29,553 nt of DNA from a virus, in IMG/VR virus record IMGVR_UViG_3300032579_001182, positions 1-29,553 of that record. One strand, 5' to 3'. Made by a program: the position numbers and the translations under genes. Shown here piece after piece: positions 4,451 through 11,604 of this stretch (position 1 is the stretch's first letter; each line of letters opens with the position of its first letter). The notes below the pieces were generated by a model. It was not told where the DNA came from. It saw nothing but the letters and a program-made list of their open reading frames with translations, and ran no database searches.

Positions 4451-4637
4451 GGGTCGCCTCCTTCTTCTGAGCGGCGTCGACGGCCTTCAGCGCGCGATCC
4501 GCGCAGCGCTGGCAGAACGAGCCGATCCGGTCGTTGCGGAAGCTCATCAGGTCGCCGGTGGCGGGCTTGCCGCAGGAGGCGCATGGGCCCAGGCCGCGGA
4601 ACCAGCGCGCGGTCGGGTAGCAGGGTGCCTTAGCCAT
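4443..4637 (-). CDS. Small zinc-ribbon protein
   Basis: A 64-residue protein with two CxxC knuckles, Cys19-x2-Cys22 (PCASCGKPA) and Cys42-x2-Cys45 (FCQRCADR), 19 residues apart, the layout of a one-zinc ribbon. Such small phage proteins usually bind nucleic acid or act as adaptors; no specific function can be read here. Both ends overlap neighbours by 8 bases, so expression is coupled to the Gp37/Gp68-family gene upstream. Confidence 0.72.
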   Translation of the reverse strand: MAKAPCYPTARWFRGLGPCASCGKPATGDLMSFRNDRIGSFCQRCADRALKAVDAAQKKEATHG

Positions 4638-5562
4638 GGCTCACCTCCGGCATGCCGTTGTGCTCGACGCCGTCGAGGAGCCGGCCGGCGGCTCTCTTGC
4701 CGATCCGCGCCACATACTCTTCGTCGGCCGTAGCCTCGCCCCAGCCCTGATCGCTCCACCCGTGCAACGGCAGGCTGACCGGGTGATCGGCGTACCAACC
4801 ATCGGCAGACAGCCACTCGCCGTTCTGCTTGTGGTGGTACGGCACACCGGCGGCGGCGCACTGGTCACGGATGCTGCGAAACCAATCTGGGTGCGTCGGC
4901 CGAGCCTTGTGGCCGCCCTGATCGGTCTCTCCGCCAGTGATGACCCAATCGATCCGCTCGATGCCGGAGGCCTTCAGGGCATCGCGGACCACCGTGAAGT
5001 CGCCGGCCTTGCCGTAGACGATCCGGGTAAAATCGATGGGTCCGAGGAGCGGCTCGGCCGAGACGAAGCTGAAGGCCGGGCGCAGGTCGCGGGCGGCGTC
5101 GAGCAGGTGCCGGACGTTCCGGTTCGCGACCTCCTGGTTCTCGCAGGTGGCGCCGAGTGCAGCGTTCTCCGGCAGCCCGCCGGCTGCCTCGGCCATGGCG
5201 ACTGCGTTCTGCGGGCGCTTCGACAGGAGCAGGTGTAGCAGGTGCGGCGTTTCCCGCATTACCGAGAACCACTCGCGCCGGATGCCCGGATCAGCGGCGT
5301 TGTCCCACGGGTCGCAGAGCGACGGGAACACGCTGATGATGCGCCCGGCTGCCTTCGCCTCCCGGTCCCATTTCGCGAGGTTGCGCCAGTAGGACTCGCT
5401 GGTCCGCTTCCGCTCGCCGTGCGGGCCCCACTCGACGCGGCCGAGGCGGGTGTCCATCAGGTGCGCAGCATAGCATCCGTCGCACGCCGGGCTGACCTTT
5501 GTGCAGCCAATCCAGGGCGACCACGTGCGGTCGCACCACGAGATGCCGGTTTCCTCAGCCAC
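4630..5562 (-). CDS. Phage Gp37/Gp68-family protein (DUF5131)
   Basis: A 310-residue protein with the full signature of the phage Gp37/Gp68 (DUF5131) family: GISWCDRTWSPWIGC at residues 6-20, then Cys27-x2-Cys30 in ACDGCYA. The cysteines 20, 27 and 30 resemble a metal or Fe-S site, and the family is often compared with radical-SAM folds, though activity is unproven. Later family-like stretches are SVFPSLCDPWDN, LLLSKRPQN, WVITGGETDQGG and KARPTHPDWFRSIRDQC. The length is close to what I expect for the family, so the gene looks complete. It sits in the middle of the leftward operon and overlaps the genes on both sides by 8 bases. Confidence 0.88.
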   Translation of the reverse strand: MAEETGISWCDRTWSPWIGCTKVSPACDGCYAAHLMDTRLGRVEWGPHGERKRTSESYWRNLAKWDREAKAAGRIISVFPSLCDPWDNAADPGIRREWFSVMRETPHLLHLLLSKRPQNAVAMAEAAGGLPENAALGATCENQEVANRNVRHLLDAARDLRPAFSFVSAEPLLGPIDFTRIVYGKAGDFTVVRDALKASGIERIDWVITGGETDQGGHKARPTHPDWFRSIRDQCAAAGVPYHHKQNGEWLSADGWYADHPVSLPLHGWSDQGWGEATADEEYVARIGKRAAGRLLDGVEHNGMPEVSHG

Positions 5563-5759: not shown

Positions 5760-7205
5760 CTACTCCGCGGCTTCGAGGAACGGGGTGGCGTCGTCGCGTG
5801 AGCGCGGCACGGCGTCGGCCATGATGGCAGCGACGCAGGCCCTCATCTTCGCGACCGAGACGGCGTTGCCGATCTGCTTGATCTGCTCCGTCTTCGTGCC
5901 GGTGAACTCGTACCGACGCTCCTCGTCGTTGAAGCCCATGGCCGCGGCCAGCTCGTGCGGCTCCAGCATCCGGAAGAGGATGTCGTAGGTCTCGGTCCCC
6001 TCGACGAGGTTCACCCGGCCGGTGGCGCAGAGCGTTGGCGCCGGGTCCTCGATGTCGTGGACGCGGGGCGCTTGGCCCTCGCGCTCGCCGAACTGCGCGG
6101 CGATGAAAGCCAGCTCGCCGCGGTGCGCCGTCGTGATCGTCGGCAGCGGATCGGTTTCCGCATCCCTCGCGCGGTTGCCGCCGTCGGCGTGCGTGATCGG
6201 CACGACCATGCCGAACCGCGCCTTGGCCGTGGCCGTTGGCAGAGGGTCCTCGCCGCTCGCGCAGGTCTCGCCCGAGCCGGAGCTGTAATAGGGCGAGATC
6301 AGAAGATGCGAGTGCTTCGCGACCTGGGTGGGCGTGGGCTCGCTGACCGGACGCGCGGCGCCCTCCGCGTGACGGGACAGCACGAGCGGCTCGACCACAC
6401 CGAAGTTGCCGCCGCCCGCATGGACGGTCCCGAGCGGCTCCTCGACGCTCTTGCTGCGTCGACCGTGGGGGTTGGCCTCGCCAGCATCGACGCCATGGGC
6501 GGCCGACAAGACGAAGGGCTCGACCAGCATGGGCCGGGCGCATCCTGGATCCTCTGACCCGGCGCCGCCGGTGGTGATCGTCGGGAGTGGGTCAGCGGTT
6601 ACACGAGGCACACCCGTGCTCCCCGTGGCCATGACGAAGGGCTCGGCCGAGAAGAGGTGAGGTGCGTGCGCGGTCTGGGTCGGCAGGGGCTCGTCGGATG
6701 CCGAGGCGGTGGAGCGCCCCTTCATGTTGACGATGATGGGCTGCGCGAGCCCGATATGCGTGCCGCCCGCGGTGATCGCCGGCAGCGGCATGTCCATGCC
6801 CTGCGCGGTCATGTGATTGCGCAGGACGACCAGGAAGGGCTCGGGCCAGCCGTGCTTCTGCGCCCCAGCATAGATCCGGGCGAGCGTTTTCGGCGCGAGG
6901 GGCTTCTTCCGGTTGAAGATCGATCGGCCCTTGATGCCCCAATCGATGATCTCGCGGGCTGGGCGCCACGGCTTCGAGCCGGAGAACAGGTCGCCGGCCA
7001 TATCGTCCCGGCGGCGGTGCGTCGGGGTCGGCCAGACCAGCTTCTTGCCGTCCGAGCGCCCCATCAGGATGAAGCGGCTGCGGGTGGTGGCGTCGCCGTA
7101 GTCCGCCGCGTTCAGCTTCCGCCATTCGAGCCGGAAGCCGAGGCGCTTCAGCGTGTCGATCCAGGCGCGGAAATACTCGCCCTTGCGCGACGCCACAGGC
7201 TTGCC
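5760..7205 (-). pseudogene. C5-cytosine DNA methyltransferase, N-terminus deleted
   Basis: About 480 residues of a DNA cytosine-5 methyltransferase remain. The surviving part begins at GKPVASRKGEYFRAWIDTL, a segment that in full-length relatives follows the ENV motif (VI), continues through NAADYGDATTRSRFILMG (motif VIII region) and ends with motif IX (FRMLEPHELAAAMGF) and motif X (KQIGNAVSVAKM). The SAM-binding motif I and the catalytic Pro-Cys of motif IV are absent, so the product cannot methylate DNA. Between motifs VIII and IX lie eight imperfect repeats around D-x-P-L-P-T-I-T (DMPLPAITA, DEPLPTQTA, ADPLPTITT, EEPLGTVHA, SEPTPTQVA, EDPLPTATA, TDPLPTITT, EDPAPTLCA), the target-recognition region. 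The open frame continues to about 7445, but there it is out of frame over the exonuclease gene and meaningless. Confidence 0.85.
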
Positions 7206-7209
7206 GGTG

Positions 7210-7707
7210 CCCGGTCTGGATCTGGAGCACGTAATCGGCCGGGATCGTGCCCTCGGGGACGTGCACCAGGAACGTCTCGACCTGGTACTTCTGCCGACGC
7301 GACTTGCACTCCACGAGGCCGTCGGTGCCGACCAGCGCGTCCGGCGAATAGCCGAGCGTGAAGCCCCAGCGGTCGTTGGTGATGAAGCCGACGGTCTCGG
7401 TCTCAGCGTAGTGCCGCGCGTAGAGGGTGAGCGCCTCGACCTCATCGTCCCGGCCGCGCAGCATGTCGTCGCTGACGTACCGGGGCTCGACGAAGCCGGT
7501 GATCCGCTGGGCGAGCAGCTCGTACAGGTGCGCCCGCTCCTTCTCGTTCCTGGCCGCCTTGAGGGTCGGCGTGAGGATCAGCGACATCTCGCTGGCGGTG
7601 AGCATCCCGCAGCGGGCCGCGATCCACTCGTCCGTGCCCTGGTAGAGGTCGGCGTGGATGCGCACGGTGGACGGGCGCGCGGGGGCGTCGGGGGCAAACA
7701 AGGCCAT
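7210..7707 (-). pseudogene. YqaJ-type phage exonuclease, C-terminus lost
   Basis: Residues 1-166 are a lambda-exonuclease-like YqaJ recombinase: IHADLYQGTDEWIAARCG, ASEMSLILTPTLKAARNEKE, the acidic active-site Asp123 in GYSPDALVG, and Glu133-x-Lys135 in LVECKSR, followed by PADYVLQIQTG. Relatives go on with a final helix-rich part after QMQ or QIQTG; here the family sequence stops at base 7210, and methyltransferase sequence begins within about 5 bases in another frame. Translation would run on in a nonsense frame to 6592 (386 residues from the outermost start). The ATG at 7705-7707 has a clear GAGGAG Shine-Dalgarno. The protein normally resects double-stranded ends for phage recombination with a RecT/Bet partner, which I do not find in the window. 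Confidence 0.85.
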
Positions 7708-7717
7708 GGGGCGCTCC

Positions 7718-7996
7718 TCAGAAGGGGATGTCGTCTGCTCGGGGCGCGGCATGGCCGGCGCTTCCGAGCCGCTCTTGGACGGCCCAGTCGAATTGCTCGC
7801 GCGCGAAGGTATTCCACGGTACGCGGCACACGACTTCGTTGAGATTGCCGGGGTCGAAGTTCGCCTTCGCGTAGATCCTGCGAGCTTCTTCTTCCGAATA
7901 CAGGCCGGCTTCGTGGGTCAGCGTGGTGTAGCCGTTGTGGTTCGGCTTCCACCACATGCCGCGCTCGTTCGACCAGATGAGGTAGCGAACCTGCAC
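7718..7996 (-). CDS. Phage protein with Trp-rich start, unknown function
   Basis: A 92-residue protein beginning VQVRYLIWSNERGMWWKPNHNGY from a GTG at 7994-7996; GGAGG lies about 10 bases upstream. I have seen this type of N-terminus (a 'WSNEHGMWWKPNRRGYT'-like pattern) in phage proteins of unknown function. The pattern THEAGLYSEEEA and the C-terminus PRADDIPF fit that picture; an acidic DDIPF tip recalls the interaction tails of single-stranded-DNA-binding proteins, although no OB fold is visible. It stands immediately before the exonuclease gene (10 bases), suggesting a role in recombination or DNA metabolism, which is inference only. Confidence 0.65.
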   Translation of the reverse strand: MQVRYLIWSNERGMWWKPNHNGYTTLTHEAGLYSEEEARRIYAKANFDPGNLNEVVCRVPWNTFAREQFDWAVQERLGSAGHAAPRADDIPF

Positions 7997-8001
7997 GGCT
8001 C

Positions 8002-8301
8002 TCAGGCCTCCGTTGGCACAGGCTGCCCGGCGACGCCGAGCCCCGCGTTGATGGCGGCGGCGAGCATCTCGGCCCGCTCGCGGTCCATGCCCGGCGAGCC
8101 GGTCGACAGGATCAGCGCGAACACCGTCCCGTCGGCGTCGGCGAGGCCGCGCAGGGTGCTCTCGCAGACGCGGACCGGCGCCCGGATTCCGAGGAAGGTC
8201 GCGCGTTGGGCGGGCGTGACGGCGCGGGGCTCGCGCATCTCGAAGGGGAGCACGGAGCGGGTCATCGCGGCCTCGGTGTGGGTGAAGGGCGGAAGGGTCA
8301 C
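8002..8301 (-). CDS. Phage protein, unknown function
   Basis: A 99-residue protein with a mixed alpha/beta composition (for example GTVFALILSTG, residues 58-68, and a terminal helix RAEMLAAAINAGL). It has no metal ligands or membrane segment. A second possible start (MTRSVLPF, residue 13) exists, but the first ATG overlaps the upstream stop as ATGA and is preferred. I do not recognise the family. Confidence 0.62.
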   Translation of the reverse strand: MTLPPFTHTEAAMTRSVLPFEMREPRAVTPAQRATFLGIRAPVRVCESTLRGLADADGTVFALILSTGSPGMDRERAEMLAAAINAGLGVAGQPVPTEA

Positions 8302-8543
8302 TGCGGCCTCCCCTGATCGGGCTGGCGGAACAGGGCAGCGCGTTTCGCGACCATCGCCGGTAGGTCTTCGGCAATGACGGTGGCGACCAGCGTCGACGCG
8401 GTCGGATCACCCTGCGTCGTGGCGGCGATCGTGGCGGCGAGCGCCGAAGCCACGATGTGAGTGAGGTCGGCGCAGGCCTTGAGCCCGCGCGTCTGCCGGA
8501 TTTCCTCCAGGCACAGGTCGAGGAGCCGCTGCTCGAAGCTCAC
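8298..8543 (-). CDS. Small helical protein, unknown function
   Basis: An 81-residue protein with an Ala/Leu-rich helical profile and one central mildly hydrophobic helix (ASALAATIAATT) that is probably buried and not membrane-spanning. The start and the stop both overlap neighbours as ATGA, which fixes the reading frame. No family is recognised. Confidence 0.62.
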   Translation of the reverse strand: MSFEQRLLDLCLEEIRQTRGLKACADLTHIVASALAATIAATTQGDPTASTLVATVIAEDLPAMVAKRAALFRQPDQGRPQ

Positions 8544-9782: not shown

Positions 9783-9810
9783 AAGATACCGTTCTGGTAT
9801 GTTCAGTCAA
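9783..9810 (-). promoter_or_regulatory. Leftward early promoter (PL-like)
   Basis: On the minus strand TTGACT (-35, 9810-9805), 16 bases, TATCTT (-10, 9788-9783) form a good sigma-70-type promoter; transcription should start near 9776, just ahead of the first leftward gene. An operator ATACC-N5-GGTAT lies in the spacer and runs into the -10. Confidence 0.7.
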
Positions 9811-9824
9811 TACCAGTTCGGCAT
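9786..9824. promoter_or_regulatory. Repressor operator pair (OL-like)
   Basis: Two copies of the dyad ATACC-N5-GGTAT, 24 bases apart start to start: 9786-9800 (ATACC GTTCT GGTAT, perfect) and 9810-9824 (ATACC AGTTC GGCAT, one change). The inner halves also form a larger inverted repeat CTGGTAT/ATACCAG. The same dyad occurs next to the repressor gene, so these are likely binding sites of that repressor and/or of the Cro-like protein. Confidence 0.72.
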
Positions 9825-9892
9825 ATTTTGCGTGCGGCGGATCCAGAAGCGCCGCCGATCAGCAGCGCTAACGCGGCGACTATCCACATTCG

Positions 9893-9921
9893 TCCACAGG
9901 CTCAAACCGTCACGGTATTTT
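9893..9921 (+). promoter_or_regulatory. Candidate rightward promoter with operator for the paralogous pair
   Basis: TCCACA (-35, 9893-9898), 17 bases, TATTTT (-10, 9916-9921). The dyad AAACC-GTCAC-GGTAT (9904-9918; one change from the perfect operator) overlaps the -10 in the same way as at the other two early promoters. The predicted start near 9928 leaves a leader of about 56 bases before the gene at 9984. The -35 is weak. Confidence 0.5.
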
Positions 9922-9983
9922 CTGTTCGCTTTTCGTTCTTATCCCGTGTCACCCTCTGGTTGTGGTCGTGCAGAGGAGTGGCC

Positions 9984-10244
9984 ATGGGCCAAAGCGTTCA
10001 GTTCGCCGTCCAGCGCTTTCAGGATGCCGGTTCGGGGCAGTGGTCTCGGGGGCGTCTCACCGAATGCAAGACAGCAGACGAGGCTCGGCGATTGGCAGAG
10101 CGTTGCGTTGCAAGGGGTGAGTCGACAGGAGCAGCGGCGTTTTCGCGACGCTCTTCAGGAGAGTTTGGAGTTCAGGACAGCCCGATCACCATCGCTGCTT
10201 TTGGCGATGTCCCACCGGAAGCGAAGGATATCCTTCCGTTCTGA
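9984..10244 (+). CDS. Immunity-region protein, paralogue 1 of 2, unknown function
   Basis: An 86-residue protein starting at ATG 9984 behind an excellent GAGGAG Shine-Dalgarno. It has a Gln/Arg-rich N-terminal half (VQFAVQRFQDAGSGQWSRGRL) followed by CKTADEARRLAERC, a short Gly/Ala-rich loop, AAAFSRRSSG and a C-terminal ITIAAFGDVPPEAKDILPF. The next gene encodes a clear paralogue with the same order of elements, so both are real. The pattern (beta strands, a helix beginning with a D-E-A-type N-cap, then strands) suggests a small alpha/beta fold. I know no function. The gene is placed downstream of an operator-bearing promoter and would be silenced with the lytic genes in a lysogen. Confidence 0.72.
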   Translation: MGQSVQFAVQRFQDAGSGQWSRGRLTECKTADEARRLAERCVARGESTGAAAFSRRSSGEFGVQDSPITIAAFGDVPPEAKDILPF

Positions 10245-10278
10245 CCGATCGATCCACTTCAACAGGGGAGAGCACCAC

Positions 10279-10545
10279 ATGGCCCTCAAGCCCATCGTCG
10301 CTCACAACGTGCAGCTCTTCGTGCTGGTGAAGGGCAAGCTGGTGGCGGGAAATCTCGTGAGCTGCAGGGATCCCGAGGACGCCTGCCGCACCGCCGAGCA
10401 GAAGGTCCAGAGTGGCCGGGCAATCGGGGCGGCCGCCTTCACGCGTACGATCGTAGATCCAGAATACGACGATGGATCGGAGCCGACCACGCTCGCCACC
10501 TTCGGCCGGCTGCCGCCTGGGTTGGCGGAGAGCCTTCCGTTCTGA
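10279..10545 (+). CDS. Immunity-region protein, paralogue 2 of 2, unknown function
   Basis: An 88-residue protein with the AGGGGAG Shine-Dalgarno before the ATG at 10279. It aligns with the preceding gene product over its whole length: VQLFVLVKGKLVAGNLVSC against VQFAVQRF...RGRLTEC, the helix DPEDACRTAEQKVQSGRAIG against TADEARRLAERCVARGESTG, AAAFTR against AAAFSR, and TLATFGRLPPGLAESLPF against TIAAFGDVPPEAKDILPF. Overall the two are clearly diverged duplicates. It ends 2 bases before the converging end of the repressor gene. Role unknown; the conserved Leu/Ile-Pro-Phe C-terminus may be an interaction tip. Confidence 0.72.
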   Translation: MALKPIVAHNVQLFVLVKGKLVAGNLVSCRDPEDACRTAEQKVQSGRAIGAAAFTRTIVDPEYDDGSEPTTLATFGRLPPGLAESLPF

Positions 10546-10547
10546 CC

Positions 10548-11267
10548 TCAGCGCCGGAGGAGCTTCTGCATCGGCCGATATGTGCCAATGACGAAGGCTC
10601 GGACCGCGACTTGGAGATCCTCGCGCGGCTTCCACTCCAGCTCGCGCCGAGGAACGTGGATCGGCTCCTGCCACCGCGGGTCGTCGCTGTCTGGGTGCAG
10701 CTCGACGGAGCCACCTTCGGCCACGCGGTAGACCTTGGCGGTGCGTTCACGCAGATGGCCGCCGAACTGGATCTGCTCGACGATCACGAGTTCGCCGTTC
10801 TGCGGCTGGTGGCCGCTGATCCCTATATCGACGCAGTGCAGGATGTCGCCGTCGATCGCTATCTGATTGATCGAGGTGCCACGCACGACGAGGCCGTACT
10901 GCGCCTTCCGTGGGTAGCGCGAGTCCGGCACCACCGGCGCGCGCTCATAGATCGTCTCGTCGACCGCGGTATCGACGGTGAGGAACCGGCCGGCCGCGAC
11001 TTCGCCCGGCACGTCCAGCCCGGCTTCCCCGTCGATCGTCCAGCCAGGCCCGTCCTCGCCTTCCGGCTCATTCAGGTTCGCAGGCGGGAAGAGCAGGGTC
11101 TCCGCGCTGATGCCGAGAGCTGGGGCGAGTCGCTCGGCCCATTCCTTCGTGAGCTTCCGCTCCCCAGCCTCGAGGCGGCGGATCTGCGGCTGCGAGGTGC
11201 TCGCCGCATCCGCCAGCTCCTGCTGGGTCAGCCGCGCCCTCTCCCGGAATTGCTTCAACGCGCTCAT
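10548..11267 (-). CDS. CI/LexA-like phage repressor with S24 peptidase domain
   Basis: A 239-residue prophage repressor. Residues 4-60 are an XRE-type helix-turn-helix (FRERARLTQQELADAA, TSQPQIRRLEAGERKLT). Residues about 85-235 are a LexA-type S24 domain: a self-cleavage site Ala92-Gly93 in GEVAAGRF, the nucleophile Ser132 in VVRGTSINQIAIDGDIL, and the general base Lys178 in RERTAKVYRV. It should therefore be inactivated by RecA-stimulated self-cleavage after DNA damage, inducing the prophage. The start at 11265-11267 is chosen because the helix-turn-helix begins right after it; the longer frame crosses the operator region. No Shine-Dalgarno precedes this ATG, and an operator (11266-11280) overlaps it, suggesting autoregulation. 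It is divergent from the Cro-like gene. Confidence 0.92.
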   Translation of the reverse strand: MSALKQFRERARLTQQELADAASTSQPQIRRLEAGERKLTKEWAERLAPALGISAETLLFPPANLNEPEGEDGPGWTIDGEAGLDVPGEVAAGRFLTVDTAVDETIYERAPVVPDSRYPRKAQYGLVVRGTSINQIAIDGDILHCVDIGISGHQPQNGELVIVEQIQFGGHLRERTAKVYRVAEGGSVELHPDSDDPRWQEPIHVPRRELEWKPREDLQVAVRAFVIGTYRPMQKLLRR

Positions 11268-11351
11268 ACCAAAGTGATATTTCGCGCTATCCAGTCCGTC
11301 TAAGGACAAAATGGTATGAGGGGGCTTGTCGTTGATATACCGTAACGGTAT
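11266..11351. promoter_or_regulatory. Operator region between repressor and cro-like gene (OR-like)
   Basis: Two good operator dyads: 11266-11280 (ATACC AAAGT GATAT, one change, overlapping the repressor start codon) and 11337-11351 (ATACC GTAAC GGTAT, a perfect 15-base palindrome over the cro promoter -10). A single half-site GGTAT stands between them at 11313-11317, and the flanks CTCATACC are shared in inverted orientation by the first and this half-site. Confidence 0.75.
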
Positions 11352-11354
11352 GTT
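11326..11354 (+). promoter_or_regulatory. Rightward early promoter (PR-like)
   Basis: TTGTCG (-35, 11326-11331), 17 bases, TATGTT (-10, 11349-11354). The perfect operator 11337-11351 fills the spacer and covers the start of the -10. The expected transcription start is at about 11361, directly at the ATG of the Cro-like gene (11362). Confidence 0.7.
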
Positions 11355-11361
11355 CGTTGGC

Positions 11362-11604
11362 ATGAGGCTCACCGACTACCTTCGCCAGCACGAGCTCACC
11401 CACACCGAGTTCGCCGCCATGATCGGCGCGACCCAGGCGGCGGTGACGCGATATGTGAACGGCCGGCGCAAGCCGAGCCTCGACAAGCTGATCCTGATCG
11501 AGCGCGTGACTGCAGGTGCGGTTCGTGCGCTCGATTTCGCCAACGATCCGGCGCCCGCCGATCCGTCGGCGGAGGCTTCCTCCGTCGAGGGAGCGGCCGC
11601 GTGA
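11362..11604 (+). CDS. Cro-like HTH regulator
   Basis: An 80-residue protein with an XRE/YdaS-type helix-turn-helix at residues 1-50: MRLTDYLRQHELTHTEFAAM, IGATQAAVTRYVNGRRKPS, LDKLILIERVTAGAV. The C-terminal 20 residues are Ala/Pro/Ser-rich. It is divergent from the repressor and first in the rightward operon, the place of Cro. The ATG at 11362 is preferred to that at 11350, which lies inside the operator and -10. There is no Shine-Dalgarno, and the predicted transcription start coincides with this codon, so translation is probably leaderless. The next gene overlaps its stop codon. Confidence 0.82.
   Translation: MRLTDYLRQHELTHTEFAAMIGATQAAVTRYVNGRRKPSLDKLILIERVTAGAVRALDFANDPAPADPSAEASSVEGAAA

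Follow-up and report, generated by a model that had tools for sequence, protein, structure and literature searches.

A predicted lambda-like lysogeny switch built on a 15-base dyad that recurs beside related repressors of temperate phages

The 15-base dyad ATACC-N5-GGTAT, found on both sides of the repressor gene of this prophage, is very probably the binding site of its lysogeny repressor, and about 30 temperate phages that otherwise differ carry the same site beside related repressors, with little variation in its distance from the start codons. We read the region as a lambda-like CI/Cro switch with two operators at OL, one at a third place designated OX and three at OR, with leaderless cI and cro transcripts and a PRM set for activation by CI from OR2, and we give this reading, on sequence grounds, a probability of roughly 0.87. 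A lambda-like switch is of a known kind; what is new is the operator code, the ruler of fixed distances on which the operators lie and a predicted third operator-covered promoter. The argument is built on computed site positions and spacing, on conservation and on recurrence of the sites together with a recognition helix.

Predicted operators and promoters around the repressor gene

The window, by which we mean the whole 29,553-base virus record analysed here, encodes a cI-like repressor (10548-11267, minus strand) that combines an HTH domain (HTH_3/HTH_31) with a Peptidase_S24 domain and carries the recognition helix TSQPQI. A cro-like gene of 80 aa with an HTH_3 domain (11362-11604, plus strand) is divergent from it. 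Two small plus-strand genes, 9984-10244 (86 aa) and 10279-10545 (88 aa), fall into no family, and the stop of the second lies 2 bp from that of cI.

A sequence-only reading of this DNA had listed five copies of the dyad, and their coordinates and mismatch counts all held: the copies at 9786-9800 and 11337-11351 are perfect, and those at 9810-9824, 9904-9918 (AAACC-N5-GGTAT) and 11266-11280 each have one change. When the whole record was searched at up to one mismatch, these five were the only matches, all of them in the switch region, and the pattern read backwards, used as a control, gave 0 matches. A weight matrix trained on 106 sites taken from other phages, to which neither the window nor its close kin contributed, placed the same five at the top of the window, at 24.1 bits (9786), 23.7 (11337), 21.0 (11266), 20.5 (9810) and 15.8 (9904). 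The sixth match, 11303-11317, scored 10.8 bits and the seventh only 3.8, so that the held-out matrix recognizes six sites and no more, all inside the switch region. The comparison with expectation that the earlier reading had proposed came out in its favor, as Markov-1 sequences of equal length carry on average 0.03 matches of at least 14 bits and 0.17 of at least 10 bits. The rank of 11303-11317 and the gap above the seventh match indicate an OR with three sites; the earlier set of five dyads was correct and had missed this one.

On the left side of cI, the perfect dyad at 9786-9800 lies over the -10 of PL (TTGACT-16-TATCTT, 9783-9810, minus strand), which begins inside GGTAT, and its half-sites are invariant in four records. 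The second OL operator, 9810-9824, abuts the PL -35. The two are 24 bp apart with TTGACT between them, a layout that agrees with the 22-26 bp around a TTGAC -35 seen in the family. All of the promoter hexamers named in the sequence-only reading are present, and only PL passes a simple sigma-70 threshold in a promoter scan.

On the right side, OR1 (11337-11351) starts at -84 relative to cI and -25 relative to cro, both measured from the ATG, and the -10 of the putative PR (TTGTCG-17-TATGTT, 11326-11354, plus strand) begins inside its GGTAT. OR3 (11266-11280) starts at -13 from the cI ATG and overlaps both the -10 of a candidate PRM (TTAGAC-18-TATCAC, 11274-11303, minus strand) and the cI start codon (11267-11265), the latter overlap having escaped the first reading. 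Between them lies the degenerate OR2 (11303-11317), which has three mismatches and one perfect half and reads ATACCATTTTGTCCT on the minus strand (11317-11303); the starts of the three sites are spaced 37 and 34 bp. OR2 starts at -50 from the cI ATG. In a scan of 38 dereplicated family members, 29 share this offset (-50 to -51), and TTAGAC likewise occurs at an equal offset in many relatives. A distance of 43 bp separates the center of OR2 from the cI ATG, and the inner half of the site is adjacent to the TTAGAC -35. In lambda, OR2 is centered near -42 of PRM, the position from which CI activates. The PRM transcript would be expected to start at the cI ATG, and if the cI message is indeed leaderless, the geometry would put OR2 at an activating position for PRM.

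Three further IMG/VR records (L006, L007 and L008) encode a repressor identical to that of the window and keep all five sites at matching places. Across the four records, which amount to three distinct sequences since L006 equals L007 across the aligned stretches, the half-sites of the six operators are unchanged at 60 of 60 positions, against 48 of 232 variable positions in other intergenic sequence (Fisher p = 7e-6). The spacer of the 9904 site varies in these relatives (GTCAC, GGCGC, GTCGC), with AAACC and GGTAT constant.

Several features elsewhere in the window merit mention in their own right. Beside the integrase stop, a stretch of 61 bp (914-974) matches Methylobacterium bullatum DNA at 98% identity. 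By eye it resembles the 3' portion of a minus-strand tRNA gene; ARAGORN detects no complete tRNA there. It is probably the attachment core, and the match hints at a Methylobacterium host. On the minus strand at 5760-7752, genes for a cytosine-5 methyltransferase and a YqaJ-type recombinase nuclease overlap, each in its own frame. The model of the methyltransferase is best matched only at its C-terminal end; a deletion or frameshift could have joined two genes here. A strong DUF5131 protein (E = 2.5e-60) with weak likeness to a radical-SAM mobile pair protein is encoded at 4630-5562 (minus strand).

Recurrence of the site beside related repressors

The Rhizobium phage RHph_Y25, the Microcystis phage Mae-JY35 and a Shinella plasmid encode repressors that are 31 to 40% identical to that of the window over the whole protein, and in all three the dyads recur at both OR and OL, the OL pairs being 24 to 25 bp apart. 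In the RHph_Y25 and Mae-JY35 records these operators carry no annotation. An Azospirillum plasmid, whose repressor is 28% identical, has dyads on both sides of cI. The TSQPQI helix is invariant across the five aligned repressors, that of the window included. We rejected phiLM21 and a Methylobacterium currus plasmid as carriers; their repressors match mainly in the S24 half, and there are no ATACC dyads near them.

The family was approached from both the operator and the protein. The operator-first scan covered 2.9 million viral contigs. The PL signature GGTATTGAC-N(4-7)-ATRCC-N5-GGTAT matched 33 of them, as against 0 for the reversed pattern. A related repressor adjoins 20 of these 33 (HTH model, E <= 4e-9), with the SQPQ helix in nearly all, and several of the remaining matches are fragments that end before the repressor. 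Four others (L099, L102, L123 and L127) are one common sequence with no related repressor and were set aside as probably unrelated. Three contigs (L113, L125 and L128) have four ATACC dyads each in an OL/OR-like layout, and the HTH model detects no repressor in them; a repressor of another, unrelated type may act on their operator.

The protein-first search, made with an alignment of the HTH, returned 39 loci. Among them are 29 dereplicated SQPQ repressors whose detection did not depend on the operator, and 27 of these have a dyad with no more than one change in the 130 bp upstream. An OL pair with a spacing of 22-26 bp accompanies 21 of the 29, and the 24-bp pair of the window recurs across the family. 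The two exceptions, L151 and L158, show no site at one mismatch, L158 having degenerate ones. Counted over 38 OR regions, a set that includes the operator-first loci and is thus biased upwards, there are 60 sites against 0.075 in shuffled sequence.

Counted from the cI ATG, the site starts of most members fall at -82 to -86, -50 or -51, and -13; a second type of member has a site near -26 instead of -13. Measured from the cro ATG, the first site starts at -23 to -26 in most members. The window fits this ruler, with strong sites at -84 and -13 from cI, a degenerate one at -50 and -25 from cro. That the offsets are fixed relative to the ATGs argues for leaderless transcripts, and both cI and cro are probably transcribed in this way. 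The OL/OR arrangement proposed in the sequence-only reading is likewise borne out, in that the same dyad flanks cI at fixed distances in many divergent phages.

We considered whether the dyads might instead be sites of a host regulator, or a chance or structural repeat, and found no point in support. In different genomes the sites accompany a single repressor family and keep their distances to cI and cro, and the record contains none outside the switch region. In two unrelated alphaproteobacterial assemblies the dyad is about as frequent as its reversed control (12 to 14 and 16 to 12). We regard this explanation as very improbable.

Variation in the recognition helix was compared with variation in the operators. 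Rhizobium phage 16-3, like the prophage, is an alphaproteobacterial temperate phage, and its C repressor has a similar S24 half and operators on both sides (OL1, OL2, OR1, OR2). It differs in its annotated operators, which are ACAA-N4 or N6-TTGT, in its helix, SQQAI, and in having two OR sites; the first 50 kb of its record, which we scanned, hold no ATACC dyad, and the dyads of the window are not ACAA...TTGT operators of the 16-3 type flanking the repressor. A prophage-like switch in L093 (1400-2300) has the helix SESQI and TACCC-N5-GGGTA-type sites, one of them 25 bp before the cro-like ORF, and is possibly a specificity variant of the same family; a scan for more SESQI repressors returned none, leaving this operator change a single case. 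L126 has the helix EQPTI yet keeps the ATACC dyad, which indicates that the rule from helix to site is not strict. These few cases would fit recognition of the operator by this helix.

The putative third operator and the genes that face cI

The two small genes between OL and cI are paralogues, 39% identical over 70 aa. They are carried only by the three close records, and no relative was found among phage proteins, Pfam, PHROG or NCBIfam. An AlphaFold model of a paralogue (beta-beta-alpha-beta-beta, pLDDT 81) had no significant fold match in two libraries (E > 0.001). Both proteins end in LPF after a divergent tail (KDILPF and ESLPF), slightly like the C-terminal tip of single-strand binding proteins; an ORF at 7718-8410 (minus strand) ends in DDIPF.

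Upstream of the pair lies the OX operator (9904-9918), whose half-sites are kept in L006-L008. Its GGTAT overlies the TATTTT of a candidate promoter PX (TCCACA-17-TATTTT, 9893-9921, plus strand), the -10 beginning inside GGTAT in the same register as at PL (TATCTT) and PR (TATGTT). The -35, TCCACA, is poor, and PX falls below the threshold of the promoter scan. We infer that PX fires and is repressed through OX.

The weak consensus match of PX would also suit an auxiliary OL site that aids looping or cooperative OL-OR binding, the paralogues being read from elsewhere. Between the start of the 9904 site and that of the nearest OL site there are 94 bp, about nine helical turns, and L109 has a third site, also AAACC-N5-GGTAT, at a distance of 75 bp from OL, which no gene separates from cI. 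Against this, in all four records 9904 stands in the same register to its TATTTT -10 as the PL and PR dyads to their own, a Shine-Dalgarno-like AGAGGAG and a gene start follow downstream, and in the family this interval usually holds rightward genes that face cI. We consider an auxiliary role for 9904 unlikely, though deserving of weight.

A third promoter under operator control is not peculiar to this prophage, as the sequence-only reading might suggest. Eleven dereplicated phages have a gene that faces cI and begins 9-14 bp away from OL, with a TATA-type -10 within one OL operator and a -35 region that touches the other, so that OL in these phages would consist of two opposed promoters under the same two operators. 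The facing genes of RHph_Y25 and Mae-JY35 encode an HTH_36 domain with weak likeness to phage replication initiators, and those of the other nine align with them; the facing gene appears to be leaderless and of winged-helix type in these phages. With eleven such relatives, a third promoter under operator cover counts as a recurrent trait. Separate third sites are rare in the wider family; one is found in L109, and L133 has three sites. In this prophage and its three close kin the candidate third promoter stands 94 bp from OL with an operator of its own, and the place of the facing gene is taken by the paralogue pair.

The arrangement in the eleven relatives raises the question of whether the rightward genes of the window are also read from inside OL, with OX secondary. 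The OL of the window does have CATATT after GG on the rightward strand, but the rightward -35 there is poor, and the first gene starts 160 bp away and has a ribosome-binding site. This origin for the transcript seems to us somewhat less probable even than an auxiliary role for 9904, and we retain PX under OX as the preferred reading.

Proposed regulation and its place among known switches

Under the proposed switch, the dyads would be operators of the prophage's own CI and probably of Cro too. CI on the two OL sites would block PL, on OX the rightward promoter of the two paralogous genes, and on OR1 PR and thus cro. A CI bound at OR2 would contact sigma at PRM and activate cI, in the manner of lambda CI at the corresponding operator. 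At OR3, which overlies the start codon of cI as well as the PRM -10, Cro or excess CI would turn cI off. The cI and cro messages would start at or beside their ATGs. After DNA damage, self-cleavage of the S24 repressor would release all early promoters together.

The switch resembles that of lambda in having cI between OL and OR, a divergent cro and an S24-type repressor, and probably also in having three OR operators, the degenerate OR2 among them, with OR2 at a predicted position near -42 of PRM, the lambda geometry being general knowledge. It differs in the 15-bp dyad itself, in the OR spacing of 34 and 37 bp, in having two OL sites only, in the overlap of OR3 with the cI start codon and in a candidate third operator-covered promoter that reads towards cI. 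Lambda has rex in that place, read with cI.

RHph_Y25 and Mae-JY35, in their repressor C regions, share the dyad, the OL pair 24 bp apart, the OR offsets and the cro ATG at -25; there, unlike in this prophage, the third gene encodes a leaderless HTH_36 protein and its promoter lies inside OL. The telomere phages PY54, N15 and phiKO2 also have an operator immediately upstream of the repressor gene, and leaderless cI and cro messages have been shown by RACE for PY54 (PMC4488713). PY54 differs in that Cro binds a single 16-bp site whose end base pairs set specificity. The repressors and stoperators of Cluster A mycobacteriophages offer a parallel in which related motifs across a diverse repressor family govern immunity classes (PMC6550527). 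Stoperators, in contrast, are asymmetric, occur many times per genome and lie mostly away from promoters, and L5 and Bxb1 have distinct consensus sites and are heteroimmune.

A 2025 survey of phiLM21-like prophages found no lambda- or 16-3-like operators and left the matter open (PMC12429752). Our search of the phage literature, largely outside the subscription journals, returned nothing relevant to the dyad and no experiment on these sites.

The operators of most alphaproteobacterial prophages are unknown, and the family described here offers switches that can be read from sequence. Repressors otherwise only about 30-40% identical may share one operator specificity across a widespread family of temperate phages, which would place phages of different hosts in a single immunity class. 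OL, for its part, may in many of these phages be a symmetric, face-to-face promoter pair, serving the early left operon on one side and a leaderless winged-helix-type gene aimed at cI on the other, both shut by the same two operators. We advance these two proposals together and tentatively, at somewhat less than even odds. With a fixed site and a ruler, one could predict for many prophages where the switch lies, which start codons are the true ones and what immunity class is likely, and with these cross-immunity between unrelated-looking phages. The third promoter suggests that a further early gene aimed at cI is a regular part of the switch.
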